Source: an uncultured Lachnospiraceae bacterium (GTDB lineage: Bacteria; Bacillota; Clostridia; Lachnospirales; Lachnospiraceae). Taken from it: 32,188 nucleotides of DNA. The notes beneath the pieces were generated by a model that was not told the DNA's origin, made no database searches, and worked only from the letters and a program-made list of their open reading frames with translations. The DNA is taken from assembly GCA_947570615.1 (NCBI GenBank), contig CANOVJ010000051.1, forward strand, positions 1 to 32,188, given 5' to 3'. Both the position numbers and the translations under genes were made by a program. Of the stretch, positions 28,967 to 32,116 are shown piece after piece (within the stretch, counting starts at the first letter, position 1; every line of letters starts with the position of its first letter).

Positions 28967-29758
28967 TCACGAGCTCGCGCTGTTATACCTCCTGATCCCC
29001 CTGGTCCACACCACATAAGTGAGAACCGTGAACACAGCCACCACGGATATCCCCCACAGTCCCAGCCGCCAGCTCATCTCTCCCACCAGTCTCTGTACCG
29101 GGAGCGTGGCCATGATACCATAGGGAAGGATCATGTAAAAGACCAGCTTATACACGCCATAAAAGGCAATCCCCGGCAGCTTCATGCACAGATCCAGACT
29201 GGCGTCCTCCAGCTGGATCAGCCTTGCATTGGAGATCACATAGAAGGAAACTGCCCGCATCAGAACCTCCATCTCATAGTAAAGGATCTCCATCACCAGA
29301 AGCCAGAAGCCGTAAGCCAGAAGGCTCTCCGGACCGATCTGCAGCCGGCTCACCTTCGCCCCGTACGCAATAATACACAGGCTCATGAGAATCAGCGGAA
29401 CGGAGCCCGGATTCACCTGCTCAAAGGTCAGCCGAAGCAGCGGGCTCACTGGTTTTGTCAGGTACAGATCCATCTCTCCGCTCAGCACCTTGTCCTGAAT
29501 CCCCAGCAGTCCGAAAAAGCAGACCGACATGCTGACGGCGTTCAGAAGGGAAAACGTTCCGATATACAAAATCACCTCTCCCCGCCCCCAGCTTCCGATG
29601 GCGTCCACATTGGAATAGACCACCCGGAACACCAGGAGCTGTACCAGAAACAGGCTCCCGTCCACGAAAAAGGGCGAGAAAAAATCCAGCCGGAATACCA
29701 TCAGATTGTGGAATCTTATTTTGATCAGCTCTCTTATCACTCTTAAATTTTTCTTCAT
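28967..29758 (-). CDS. ABC-2 family exporter permease (COG3694-like)
   Basis: A 263-aa membrane protein with six helices of the ABC-2 permease type. The N-terminal amphipathic entry (VIRELIKIRFHNLMVFRLDF), the segment VLSGEMDLYLTKPVSPLLRL and the GIRRYNSASS ending are the pattern of COG3694 permeases ('uncharacterised transport, permease'), usually paired with COG4587 and COG4586 partners. It pairs with the permease upstream to form a heterodimer. The ATG overlaps the stop of that gene (29755-29758). The substrate is unknown; related systems are implicated in lipid, peptide or drug export. Confidence 0.9.
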   Translation of the reverse strand: MKKNLRVIRELIKIRFHNLMVFRLDFFSPFFVDGSLFLVQLLVFRVVYSNVDAIGSWGRGEVILYIGTFSLLNAVSMSVCFFGLLGIQDKVLSGEMDLYLTKPVSPLLRLTFEQVNPGSVPLILMSLCIIAYGAKVSRLQIGPESLLAYGFWLLVMEILYYEMEVLMRAVSFYVISNARLIQLEDASLDLCMKLPGIAFYGVYKLVFYMILPYGIMATLPVQRLVGEMSWRLGLWGISVVAVFTVLTYVVWTRGIRRYNSASS

Positions 29759-30549
29759 ATTCCCACCCCGTCATACTTTCTGCTGTATCTGCTCCAGGTC
29801 AGCCGGATCAGCGCCTGCATGAGCGCACACCATGCCGCCAGGATTCCCAGACCGGATATGGCTTCCCCGGCCAGCTTTCCGGTAAGGAGCATGGAGGGCA
29901 GATAGGTCACATAGTAGAACGGCAGAAGCTTCATAACCCTCACCACTGCCTCCGGGAACAGCGCCAGCGGGATAATGCTTCCGGTGACCAGCTCCACAAA
30001 ATGCCTCTTGATCATCAGAAACGTGTCGATCCCCTGGTATTTCAGTGTCAGAATCCCCAGATAATAGTTGAGCTGCACCATGAAAAACAACCCCAGCAGG
30101 ATCATACAAAGACTGCACAGCCAGATCGTCACATCCGCCGTCAGCACGAACTCGATCCGGAAAATAAACACCCAGATCAGCGCCGCCGCAAGGTCAAATC
30201 CCAGATAGAACAACGCCACACCCGCCTCCATGGCGGTAAAATATCCCTCGATACTCACCGGCAGAATCATATATTTGGAAAAGGTTCCGTTGCGGATCCT
30301 GGCGCAGACCTCCCCGCTGATTCCGTCCGACATTTCAAGCTGATACAGAAAAGCGCTTATAATATAGTAGGAAAGCATTCCATGAAATGTAAATCCGGCA
30401 ACCACATCCTTTCCGGCAAAAATAATTCCCCAGAGCAGGCTCGCAAACACAATCCTGGAAACCGTAAAAATCATGTTAAAGGCCACATCCGCCCGCCAGG
30501 CCATCTGTGACTTTAAAAATACTCTGGCAATCTCCCTGTATTTACACAT
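29755..30549 (-). CDS. ABC-2 family exporter permease (COG4587-like)
   Basis: A 264-aa six-helix ABC-2 permease. It starts with CKYREIARVFLKSQMAWRADVAFN, the family's cytosolic entry helix, and carries CARIRNGTFSKYMILPVSIEGYF, the matching 'G.l...l..P......' loop of COG4587. It should form the membrane channel with the next permease. AAGGAG lies 9 nt before the ATG. It overlaps the ATPase gene by 8 bp and the following permease by 4 bp, so all three are strictly co-translated. Confidence 0.9.
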   Translation of the reverse strand: MCKYREIARVFLKSQMAWRADVAFNMIFTVSRIVFASLLWGIIFAGKDVVAGFTFHGMLSYYIISAFLYQLEMSDGISGEVCARIRNGTFSKYMILPVSIEGYFTAMEAGVALFYLGFDLAAALIWVFIFRIEFVLTADVTIWLCSLCMILLGLFFMVQLNYYLGILTLKYQGIDTFLMIKRHFVELVTGSIIPLALFPEAVVRVMKLLPFYYVTYLPSMLLTGKLAGEAISGLGILAAWCALMQALIRLTWSRYSRKYDGVGI

Positions 30550-31600
30550 CCGCTTTTTCTCCTTCCCGGTAGATCCGCTCGATCACCTTTCCCACTTCCT
30601 CCTCCTCGATGGTAATGTCCGCAGGCTCGCAGGCCATGACCCTGCCCATGACCTCCCCCGTCCTCTCTTTGGGAACCAGAAGAACCTTTTTGTAGGGGGT
30701 ATCCTCCAGAACCCGGATACCGGACGCATTTCCGGGCGTTGCTTCCGCTCCCGCCTCCCGCCCCCAAAGCCATCCTGTATCCCCGTCCGCCCCCTGGATC
30801 CCTTCCACCGGGTGCTGAAAGGTGACGCTGATTTTTCTGTTTTTCTGATATCTCTCAAAGAGAGCCTCCGTCCCGCCGTCATAAATTTTTGTCCCGTGAT
30901 GGATCACCACTGACCGGCCGCACAGCGCCCGGATATCCTCCATATAGTGTGAGGTGAGAAGAATAGTGGTTCTGCGCTCCTCGTTGATCTCCTTTAAAAA
31001 CCTGCGGATCTGTCTGGAGGCGATTGCGTCCAGTCCTATGGTTGGTTCGTCCAGAAACAGTACCCTGGGATTATGCAAAAGGGCCACGATCAGCTCCATT
31101 TTCATCCGTTCCCCCAGGGAAAGAGTCCGCACCTGTACATCCATCAGCTCCTGCACGCCGAACAGCTCCACAAAATACGCCCTGTTGCTTCGAAAATCCT
31201 CCTCGGAAATCTCATAAATCTCCTTGAACATCCGCAGGATATCGTTTACCGTCAGCTCAAAAAACAACTGGCTTTTCTGCCCCATCACCACCGCATACTG
31301 CTTTTTGAACTCATTTTTCATATCGTTGGGATAGTATCCCAGCACACTGACCTGACCGCAGGTGGGCGCGATGATCCCGGTCAGCATCTTGATCAGCGTG
31401 GTCTTTCCCGCGCCGTTGGGCCCGATCAGCCCCACAAACTCTCCCCCGGCGATCTGCAGATCCATGCCGCTTACCGCCGTCTTCTCCACATATTCCCTGT
31501 GAAAAAGGCTGGAAACGCTTCCCCGCAGCCCTTCCTTCTTTTTGTACCTTCTGTAGCGTTTGGTTAAATCCCTGGTCTCGATTACATTCTGTGCATCCAT
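30542..31600 (-). CDS. ABC-2 exporter ATP-binding protein (COG4586-like)
   Basis: A 352-aa ATPase. After a basic N-terminus (TKRYRRYKKKEGLRGSVSSLF, typical of COG4586) come Walker A GPNGAGKTT, the Q-loop VMGQKSQLFFELT with the family's 'QLFW' position, the signature LSLGERMKMEL, Walker B LFLDEPTIGLD and the switch His in LLTSHYMED. The C-terminal ~100 residues (from FQHPVEG...) form a regulatory domain and include a low-complexity Gly/Ala insert. The start at 31600 is fixed by AAGGAGGG eight nt upstream; an earlier in-frame start at 31663 would run through the promoter. It is the first gene of the operon. Confidence 0.93.
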   Translation of the reverse strand: MDAQNVIETRDLTKRYRRYKKKEGLRGSVSSLFHREYVEKTAVSGMDLQIAGGEFVGLIGPNGAGKTTLIKMLTGIIAPTCGQVSVLGYYPNDMKNEFKKQYAVVMGQKSQLFFELTVNDILRMFKEIYEISEEDFRSNRAYFVELFGVQELMDVQVRTLSLGERMKMELIVALLHNPRVLFLDEPTIGLDAIASRQIRRFLKEINEERRTTILLTSHYMEDIRALCGRSVVIHHGTKIYDGGTEALFERYQKNRKISVTFQHPVEGIQGADGDTGWLWGREAGAEATPGNASGIRVLEDTPYKKVLLVPKERTGEVMGRVMACEPADITIEEEEVGKVIERIYREGEKADV

Positions 31601-31670: not shown

Positions 31671-31712
31671 GGCCCGCATGCTGCACCAACAGCAAACTTC
31701 CATATGCGGGCC
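31671..31712 (-). repeat. Structured motif, copy proximal to the ABC operon
   Basis: GGCCCGCAT (31671-31679) pairs with ATGCGGGCC (31704-31712). Inside, GCTG (31680-31683) pairs with CAGC (31690-31693) around a 6-nt loop, and a 10-nt single-stranded segment follows on one side (31694-31703). The core is shared with a copy at 31837-31876 whose outer stem is different. Confidence 0.75.
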
Positions 31713-31717
31713 TGCGC

Positions 31718-31766
31718 AAAAAAAGACCGTGCAGATCTGCCCCGGACGGCATGATACTGCACGGTC
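31718..31766 (-). terminator. Intrinsic terminator between the two motif copies
   Basis: GACCGTGCAG (31725-31734) pairs with CTGCACGGTC (31757-31766). On the minus strand the stem is followed by seven T (31718-31724). It separates the two motif copies and would stop transcripts from the upstream promoter before the ABC operon. Confidence 0.8.
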
Positions 31767-31836: not shown

Positions 31837-31876
31837 GGGCACACGCTGCATCAACAGCAAATTCTTCTGTGTGCCC
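31837..31876 (-). repeat. Structured motif, distal copy
   Basis: GGGCACAC (31837-31844) pairs with GTGTGCCC (31869-31876). The inner GCTG (31845-31848) and CAGC (31855-31858) with a 6-nt loop, and a 10-nt asymmetric segment (31859-31868), match the proximal copy in spacing and nearly in sequence. Only the outer stem differs, and it remains fully paired. Confidence 0.75.
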
Positions 31877-31884
31877 CTGTACAC

Positions 31885-31915
31885 AAAAAGGAGCACAGCC
31901 ACACAGCCATGCTCC
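31885..31915 (-). terminator. Intrinsic terminator of the upstream small RNA
   Basis: GGAGCA (31890-31895) pairs with TGCTCC (31910-31915) around a 14-nt loop, followed on the minus strand by five T (31885-31889). It is ~200 nt from a consensus promoter with no gene between. Confidence 0.75.
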
Positions 31916-32081
31916 CATTCCAATCAGCAAATTACATTATTAACCAGATCTATCAGCACATCGTAAGGCAGAAATGAGAATGATTCCACGCAAAATAGAC
32001 AGGAATCATCCCTGCAATATTTATTTTGCATTCTCCATTTTTACCACGGCTGACATAAACTGTCCCCCACTTCTTAATGAT
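31885..32081 (-). ncRNA. Candidate ~200-nt structured non-coding RNA
   Basis: A consensus promoter (32088-32116) and a terminator (31885-31915) bracket ~197 nt without a gene. The RNA can form AAATGAGAATG/CATTCTCCATTT (31972-31982 with 32029-32040), enclosing CAAAATA/TATTTTG (31991-31997 with 32022-32028) and CAGG/CCTG (32000-32014). An 8-bp alternative, ATGATTCC (31980-31987) with GGAATCAT (32002-32009), excludes all three. CCACGGCTG near the 5' end can also pair with CAGCCATG (31904-31911) next to the terminator. Length and bracketing resemble a 6S RNA, but I cannot confirm it; an orphan riboswitch leader is another option. Confidence 0.55.
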
Positions 32082-32087
32082 AAAATC

Positions 32088-32116
32088 ATTATAGTTCTCT
32101 GCAGGCGGTTTGTCAA
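32088..32116 (-). promoter_or_regulatory. Perfect sigma-A promoter of the candidate RNA
   Basis: TTGACA (32111-32116), 17-nt spacer, TATAAT (32088-32093): every position agrees with the sigma-A consensus, the strongest promoter in the window. It reads leftward into the candidate RNA. Confidence 0.88.

Follow-up and report, generated by a model that had tools for sequence, protein, structure and literature searches.

A probable ribosome-mediated attenuator leader before an ABC-2 exporter and/or a MutS2 paralog in gut Lachnospiraceae

The leader RNA described here, from an uncultured Lachnospiraceae bacterium, is a member of an unannotated cis-regulatory family and no stand-alone small RNA. We consider it likely that the leader acts as a ribosome-mediated transcription attenuator, inducing an exporter and/or a ribosome-rescue paralog when translation is inhibited. 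The sequence features behind this reading are a promoter, a Shine-Dalgarno (SD) sequence, a short upstream open reading frame (uORF), a conserved fold, one or more terminators, and linkage to two classes of gene. The leader is read on the minus strand of the window, by which we mean the whole stretch of DNA analyzed (32,188 nucleotides of contig C51, from a genome of 4.05 Mb), and its parts are collected in Table 1.

Table 1 Features of the leader and downstream operon in the window.
Feature	Position	Strand	Basis
Sigma-70 type promoter, TTGACA-17-TATAAT	32088..32116	-	12/12 consensus matches
Shine-Dalgarno GGGGGA, 6 nt 5' of uORF ATG	32063..32068	-	read from sequence
uORF, 11 codons, MSAVVKMENAK*, stop codon within hairpin P2	32021..32056	-	read from sequence; homologous uORFs in relatives
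Structured leader core	31944..32055	-	covariance models R1 (36.7 bits) and R2 (48 bits, window itself among its 81 rows)
Helix P1, uORF strand 32053-32031 with 31973-31953	31953..32053	-	window folds; homologous helix in relatives
Hairpin P2, TGCAAAATAAATATTGCA, enclosing stop codon, most conserved stretch	32013..32030	-	alignments
Hairpin P3	31977..32012	-	fold and alignment
3' strand X, proposed antiterminator strand (TGCTTAATATTRTGG in relatives)	31940..31962	-	pairing models; weak in window
Terminator T1, GGGAGCATGGCTGTGTGGCTGTGCTCC then T-run	31889..31916	-	-18.3 kcal/mol, z -4.85
Second terminator T2, GACCGTGCAG...CTGCACGGTC then TTTTTTT	31718..31766	-	inverted repeat and fold, recognized by hand
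ABC-2 exporter ATPase, first gene of downstream operon	30542..31600	-	PF00005; 63% identity to leader-linked abcA of G030 (tblastn)
Exporter permease B	29755..30549	-	64% identity to permB of G030
Exporter permease C	28967..29758	-	PF06182; 61% identity to permC of G030

The leader RNA and its relatives

An earlier note on this DNA had proposed a structured RNA running from a perfect promoter to an intrinsic terminator ahead of an ABC-2 exporter, and our analysis bears out each of these elements (Table 1): the promoter and the T1 hairpin with its T-run lie on the minus strand, exporter genes follow downstream, and the 200-nt RNA folds better than all 200 shuffled versions of itself (z -3.56). 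The same note took the transcript to be devoid of a coding gene. This was wrong, since the leader holds an 11-codon ORF with its own SD sequence, retained in relatives, and the stretch is thus not free of coding sequence. Mutually exclusive folds, also proposed, do exist, formed by the strand 3' of P1 and the 5' arm of T1, but not at the sites first named. One of those, an 8-bp helix (31980-31987 with 32002-32009), is part of helix P3 in the main fold and competes with nothing. The other, a pairing of 32045-32052 with the terminator loop at 31904-31911, can form (eight pairs, one of them G-U, counted by eye), but its uORF-side motif CAGCCRTG occurs in only 1 of 81 leaders, that of the window itself, and the pairing is therefore not a conserved feature.

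Known RNA families were rejected as identities for the leader. The Rfam search suggested by the earlier note was run and returned no family at gathering score (6S, T-box and riboswitches included) in the window, nor in six relatives scanned together with the window's own locus; when matches up to E 10 were admitted, only four sub-threshold ones appeared (E 0.46 to 7.1). The note's main alternative, a 6S RNA, falls with this result, and the 6S RNA of this genome lies elsewhere (C12:3438-3632, 60.7 bits against a cut-off of 46.4).

Collecting homologs, the other check that had been proposed, yielded conserved, covarying leaders in Lachnospiraceae. A DNA search of 98 genomes matched nine, comprising the window's own genome, six true homologs from the same genus, and two chance or coding matches (L012 and L014) that were left out. 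The six homologs share the SD sequence, a small ORF, the near-invariant stretch TGCAAARTAAATATTGCARGG and the long-range helix, and they also carry CCTTACAATTGCTTAAT or CCCTACAATTTGCTTAAT, followed by a terminator. The covariance model R1, built from these six with the window excluded, recovered the window RNA at E 5.5e-7, while the next best match scored 9.5 bits. R1 matched 25 of 397 genomes in the family, counting the window's own and one model source; in the genus, the 8 matching genomes out of 37 were the window's own, the six sources and one more.

A second model, R2, was built from 81 rows, the window among them. These rows were drawn from 94 R1 sources, leaving out long inserts, some duplicates and near relatives; a second, weak R1 match at L098 (16.7 bits) was also dropped. 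Across the order, R2 had matches in 7 of 295 genomes, three of which belong to other families, and the 2 matching genomes among 291 in the class both come from the window's own family; stricter filters, which lose weak matches, applied in these large covariance-model searches. A pattern scan blind to genes covered 84,980 species and reported 93 stretches, from which 80 loci were taken. Most are labelled Lachnospiraceae, and they include Parablautia intestinalis, P. muri, Eubacterium plexicaudatum ASF492 and Acetivibrio ethanolgignens. The family thus described occurs in gut Lachnospiraceae and a few related bacteria. L106, unlike nearly all other loci, is labelled as a Bacteroides sp. metagenome-assembled genome.

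The typical leader consists of an SD sequence, a tiny ORF with its stop in a hairpin loop, a covarying junction, the strand TGCTTAATATTRTGG and a terminator. In a 71-row MAFFT alignment that was not fitted to structure (the window and the weakest or most diverged matches were left out), 92.4% of cells paired, compared to 42-52% with slid partners, and changes on both sides of a pair were found in 101 cells versus 26.7 (sd 7.1) in shuffled alignments. The covariance-model-fitted alignment gave 95.1% paired cells and 179 both-side changes versus 29.8. Hairpin P4 contributed 75 of the 101 both-side changes in the 71-row alignment. Helix P1 was 96.6% paired in the 71 relatives, with 7 both-side cells over its 13 pairs; P1 varies little, and its own covariation is therefore thin. 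Very strong nucleotide conservation was seen in the near-invariant stretches TGCAAARTAAATATTGCARGG and TTTTCGCCTTACAATTGCTTAATATT. L119, which contains a run of N, was excluded from every structure count. By alignment, P4 is absent from the window leader, which is a divergent member of the family.

Related hairpins with an asymmetric purine-rich bulge were found in several places: two in the window (31677-31725 and 31842-31890, 71% identical), one in L210 (1490-1540), and others in L124, L144 and L172. One lies 3' of a tRNA-Gln gene on contig C7, and a relaxed pattern gave three matches, each 188-214 nt behind a leader core. These hairpins may be a dispersed repeat or a second leader element.

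Genes behind the leader

The window belongs to the exporter class of loci, its three exporter proteins being 61-64% identical to those of the leader-linked exporter of G030. Permease B of the window has no Pfam match, and no solved relative was found for permease C. PADLOC matched only ATPase parts (best mads_3 at 8.3e-24, for the window ATPase).

Across the 80 gene-blind loci, tblastn placed an ABC-2 exporter operon and/or a MutS2 paralog downstream of the leader in 74. A mutS2-like gene alone follows in 59 loci and abcA-permB-permC in 7, with abcA at the locus end in 2 more; all four genes stand in tandem (abcA-permB-permC-mutS2) in 5 (L080, L087, L105, L119 and L149), and 1 has a permC remnant with a mutS2-like gene. 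The first gene match starts 191-719 nt behind the leader pattern in these 74 loci. Four of the six loci with neither gene class have less than 750 nt of downstream DNA, and the other two are L106, with a methyltransferase, and L151, with pieces of an ABC transporter. The order search added five new R2 matches, four before abcA (two of these, L207 and L208, nearly identical) and one before a mutS2-like gene, three of the five lying in other families.

Other genes occur at individual loci. A methyltransferase lies between leader and mutS2-like gene in L077 (972-1688), a methyltransferase immediately behind the leader in L106 (6888-7661) is 36% identical to it, and a GNAT acetyltransferase lies between leader and mutS2-like gene in L182 (3073-3705); these are possible further members of the regulon. 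In L151, a 331-aa ORF that has no Pfam match is followed by one matching part of PF00005, an arrangement that we take for a broken ABC transporter. At two loci, L066 and L114, a permease C remnant precedes a MutS2-like gene broken into separate frames, which in L066 measure 493 and 166 aa. Behind the MutS2-like gene of L129, approximately 2280 and 4049 nt from the leader core, stand two ORFs (588 and 586 aa) that weakly resemble the ABC ATPase.

The linked MutS2 is a paralog distinct from the canonical form. MutS2 matches at E 1e-40 or better were found in 79 of 80 family genomes and were mostly canonical (near 800 aa, about 300 bits). A shorter paralog, distinct from these, was also present in 13 genomes (in 12 it scored above 540 bits, and in one it was a contig-end fragment); one genome held an intermediate form. 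The linked paralog is about 635 aa long. That of L051 scored 539.8 bits against the mutS2 model TIGR01069 (cut-off 400) over profile positions 3-510 of 790, which correspond to the ATPase core, and this core matches the solved MutS2 of Bacillus subtilis over profile positions 6-541. Smr and MSSS domains gave no match at E up to 10 in the three paralogs scanned (L142, L172 and L105), whereas the canonical MutS2 of the window's genome, which is also the genome of L172, matches Smr (3.4e-25) and MSSS. A region of the paralog, GDSVMVYPDKKIGIV, resembles a KOW/SH3-like domain by eye alone.

None of the 17 canonical MutS2 loci gave an R2 match, and 7 of the 14 taken as MutS2-like did; four of the seven match by construction, their RNAs being in the model, and three are new (E 1.2e-5, 0.007 and 0.21). 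The window's genome itself has a MutS2-like gene on contig C34 (L172, 38232-40106) with a second, strongly diverged leader, which encodes the uORF MEVKENTDN*, matches R2 at E 0.007 and was missed by R1. Upstream of MutS2-like loci, a short ORF and a terminator-like hairpin were present in 7 of 8 cases, judged by eye, with the RNA sequence mostly lost. Among the diverged genes (L179, L180, L181, L184, L185, L186 and L191), other short ORFs, such as MLIASEYGA* and MSVLSVEVKDN*, accompany terminator-like hairpins, and these leaders perhaps constitute several sub-classes.

A proposed switch and its alternatives

In the attenuation mechanism that we propose, ribosomes of unstressed cells would complete the uORF quickly, allowing the uORF strand to form P1, and the extension of P1, with the 3' strand. 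Strand X would thereby be held back, and T1 (and T2 where present) would end the transcript at roughly 200 nt. If a ribosome stalled, whether through a translation inhibitor or for some other reason, it would stay on the uORF or its stop codon and so block P1; X (TGCTTAATATTRTGG) would then be free to pair with the 5' arm of T1 and subsequently of T2. With the terminators disarmed, RNA polymerase would enter the exporter and/or MutS2 paralog genes, and the proteins made from them would pump the inhibitor out and clear ribosomes that had stalled.

Pairing models are consistent with the T1 part of this mechanism. Strand X lies directly 3' of P1 and is complementary to the 5' arm of T1. A terminator was found in 75 of 81 loci; L083, L088, L110, L118, L119 and L158 were left out of the switch model because no terminator or motif was found. 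We modelled the leaders up to the 5' arm of T1, keeping the uORF and 12 nt past its stop unpaired to mimic a stalled ribosome. Expected X-T1 pairs rose from 1.85 in the free RNA to 6.80 with the uORF masked (65 up, 6 down, 4 unchanged; n = 75). Shuffling the 5' end raised the expected pairs to 5.31 from the native 1.85, the native value being lower in 67 and higher in 7 of the 75. True X/T1 partners paired at -7.88 kcal/mol compared to -7.20 for permuted partners, with 20 of 20,000 permutations as good (91 of 5,000 with cruder terminator calls). In the window, masking raised expected pairs only from 2.5 to 4.8, and T2 is also in the path. At equilibrium the finished T1 hairpin prevails over the antiterminator (mean stem probability 0.95), so the switch would have to be kinetic, with the choice made during transcription.

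The T2 pattern (ACCATRGTATC...CYATGGT and a T-run) was drawn up after such hairpins had been noticed. It matched 42 of 81 loci on the same strand, 125-565 nt behind the start of the leader pattern, and elsewhere in 609 kb it matched only three times, on the opposite strand and also at leaders (+257 to +298). It does not match the window's own T2 copy. The T2-class hairpin comes first among the terminators in L103, L135 and L147, at no more than 20 nt from X. X paired with the 5' arm of T2 at -11.45 kcal/mol versus -6.73 for shuffled arms (41 loci and the window). In 9 of the 42, none of 100 shuffles did as well (the median share that did was 3%), and an average of 5% of downstream 24-mers pair equally well. 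Neither X and T2 (4,261 of 10,000 permutations as good) nor T1 and T2 displayed partner-specific covariation in permutations. These complementarities suggest that one antiterminator strand may serve both terminators.

The uORF that would sense the ribosome typically encodes MLSVIVMEKIAK*, to which the window's peptide in Table 1 corresponds. By rule, 78 of 80 uORFs have an SD sequence (the exceptions are L123 and L129, the uORF of the latter being cut by the locus edge), stops are TAA in 78 and TGA in 2, and lengths are 12 aa in 69, 11 aa in 4, 10 aa in 3 and 9 aa in 4; in L086, L097, L110 and L138 the rule chose GTG or TTG, though an in-frame ATG further up gives 12 aa. The third codon position is the most variable at codons 4 and 12, the third base of codon 12 being left free by the search pattern, which is also responsible for some of the uORF conservation. 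Codons 3 and 5 vary more at their first or second position, and codons within P1 hardly vary. A start with an SD sequence was found in 78 of 79 leaders in frame 0, none in frame +1 and 63 of 79 in frame +2, a control that does not discriminate. Taken together, the third-base variation of codon 4, the contrary codons 3 and 5 and this control make coding constraint on the uORF likely, if not proved.

The attenuation mechanism has to be weighed against a riboswitch, one of the classes that the earlier note had named for its regulatory RNA with exclusive folds. Conservation, covariation and gene linkage uphold the regulatory RNA, but a ligand riboswitch is less likely than attenuation, since an ORF lies at the heart of the conserved fold and the genes linked to it resemble translation-stress genes. 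If the conserved junction bound a metabolite or antibiotic directly, with the uORF incidental or a minor tuning element, the conservation of TGCAAARTAAATATTGCARGG and TTTTCGCCTTACAATTGCTTAATATT, which exceeds the need of a plain attenuator, would find an explanation, and pairing does account for part of the uORF conservation. We nevertheless regard this reading as unlikely: 78 of 80 leaders retain SD, start and stop, the diverged MutS2-like leaders keep a short ORF while mostly losing the RNA sequence (7 of 8 by eye), and an exporter and a MutS2 paralog do not make up one metabolic pathway.

A classical starvation attenuator, which would sense Lys or Asn tRNA charging through conserved codons near the uORF end, seems improbable. 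The last codon is Lys or Asn in all 80 pattern loci (the pattern itself forces AAN) and also in the diverged C34, L179 and L186 leaders, but L180, L181, L184, L185 and L191 end in other residues. Moreover, the uORFs contain no run of a single residue, Lys and Asn are mixed, and none of the linked genes is a lysine or asparagine gene. Least probable of all is a stand-alone or dual-function small RNA (6S-like included) lying before these genes by chance: its strong promoter and roughly 200-nt RNA with a strong terminator would suit that role, and a short RNA may accumulate in the off state, but the recurrence of the same two gene classes behind 74 of 80 gene-blind loci, the lack of Rfam matches at gathering score and the separate 6S RNA speak against it.

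Known systems and significance

Ribosome-mediated attenuation of this kind would resemble rli80-hflXr of Listeria monocytogenes, where, in the available text of PMC6310831, an attenuator that has a small ORF and depends on the ribosome governs a splitting-factor paralog protecting against lincomycin and erythromycin. Both have a small ORF and alternative RNA folds before a paralog of a ribosome-splitting factor, and rli80 is induced by lincomycin and erythromycin; the target there is an HflX homolog and the peptide has 14 aa with an RLR, whereas our leaders precede a MutS2 paralog in other bacteria. The available parts of PMC6310831 mention no exporter in the same transcript, whereas some of our loci include one. 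The mefA/msrD system likewise places an efflux pump and a ribosome-acting ATPase under transcription attenuation by leader peptides (MefAL and MsrDL), a stalled ribosome obstructing the terminator, according to excerpts of PMC10314930; unlike here, MsrD is an ABC-F protein, and the peptides, MTASMRLR and MYLIFM, are unrelated. Our leaders, unlike mefA/msrD, have one conserved RNA fold spanning 138 model positions. MefA is of another transporter class than ABC-2.

Two further systems are partly similar. The uORFC-6-1 motif, found by comparative genomics upstream of hflX in Bacillales, likewise combines RNA structure with an embedded uORF ahead of a gene for ribosome rescue, but it encodes an RLR peptide, its structure lies wholly downstream of the uORF start, and its gene and order differ (parts of PMC8632094). 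The toiL uORF of Escherichia coli topAI is regulatory as well and senses several classes of ribosome-targeting antibiotics, but it acts via the downstream ribosome-binding site and Rho instead of an intrinsic terminator (PMC12121999). The R/K-x-R/K arrest motif of macrolide-responsive peptides (as defined in a portion of PMC10314930) is absent, by eye, from the consensus MLSVIVMEKIAK*. Since peptide, RNA and linked genes differ and RLR and R/K-x-R/K are absent, the leader is not a member of rli80-hflXr or mefA/msrD, though by analogy it would work like them in function, with another peptide, RNA and targets. Among the best matches in open-licence papers, in the parts available, none was found to describe a leader or attenuator for MutS2 or this exporter, and 'mutS' is absent from the main text of PMC8632094 and PMC2965389.

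The MutS2 of B. subtilis shares the ATPase core with the linked paralog, which is about 635 aa long and lacks Smr and MSSS matches. In the passages available from PMC10897456, mutS2 deletion makes B. subtilis hypersensitive to chloramphenicol, tetracycline and erythromycin, and SMR removal dramatically reduces ribosome binding; SMR or KOW mutants are only modestly erythromycin-sensitive, however, and the ATPase is most critical. An SMR-less form could therefore still act on ribosomes, as we suggest for the paralog. Somewhat more tentatively than the attenuation mechanism alone, it is conceivable that a MutS2 paralog lacking SMR, the collision-sensing domain ('MutS2r'; in some cases co-transcribed with an ABC-2 exporter), constitutes an antibiotic-inducible ribosome-rescue resistance system of gut Lachnospiraceae, in which a single leader peptide, bearing a new arrest sequence (V-M/T-E-K-x-A-K/N-stop), is in control and one antiterminator strand disarms two successive terminators; we hold this fuller picture to be a little less than evenly balanced.

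If true, these leaders would place a further paralog of a ribosome-splitting factor, beside HflXr, under a stalling-peptide switch, in gut commensals and together with an exporter. The system opens tests of the role of an SMR-less MutS2, of the gut compound that is sensed and of arrest by a peptide without a known motif, and the promoter-leader unit offers a ready reporter for whichever translation inhibitor may be involved.
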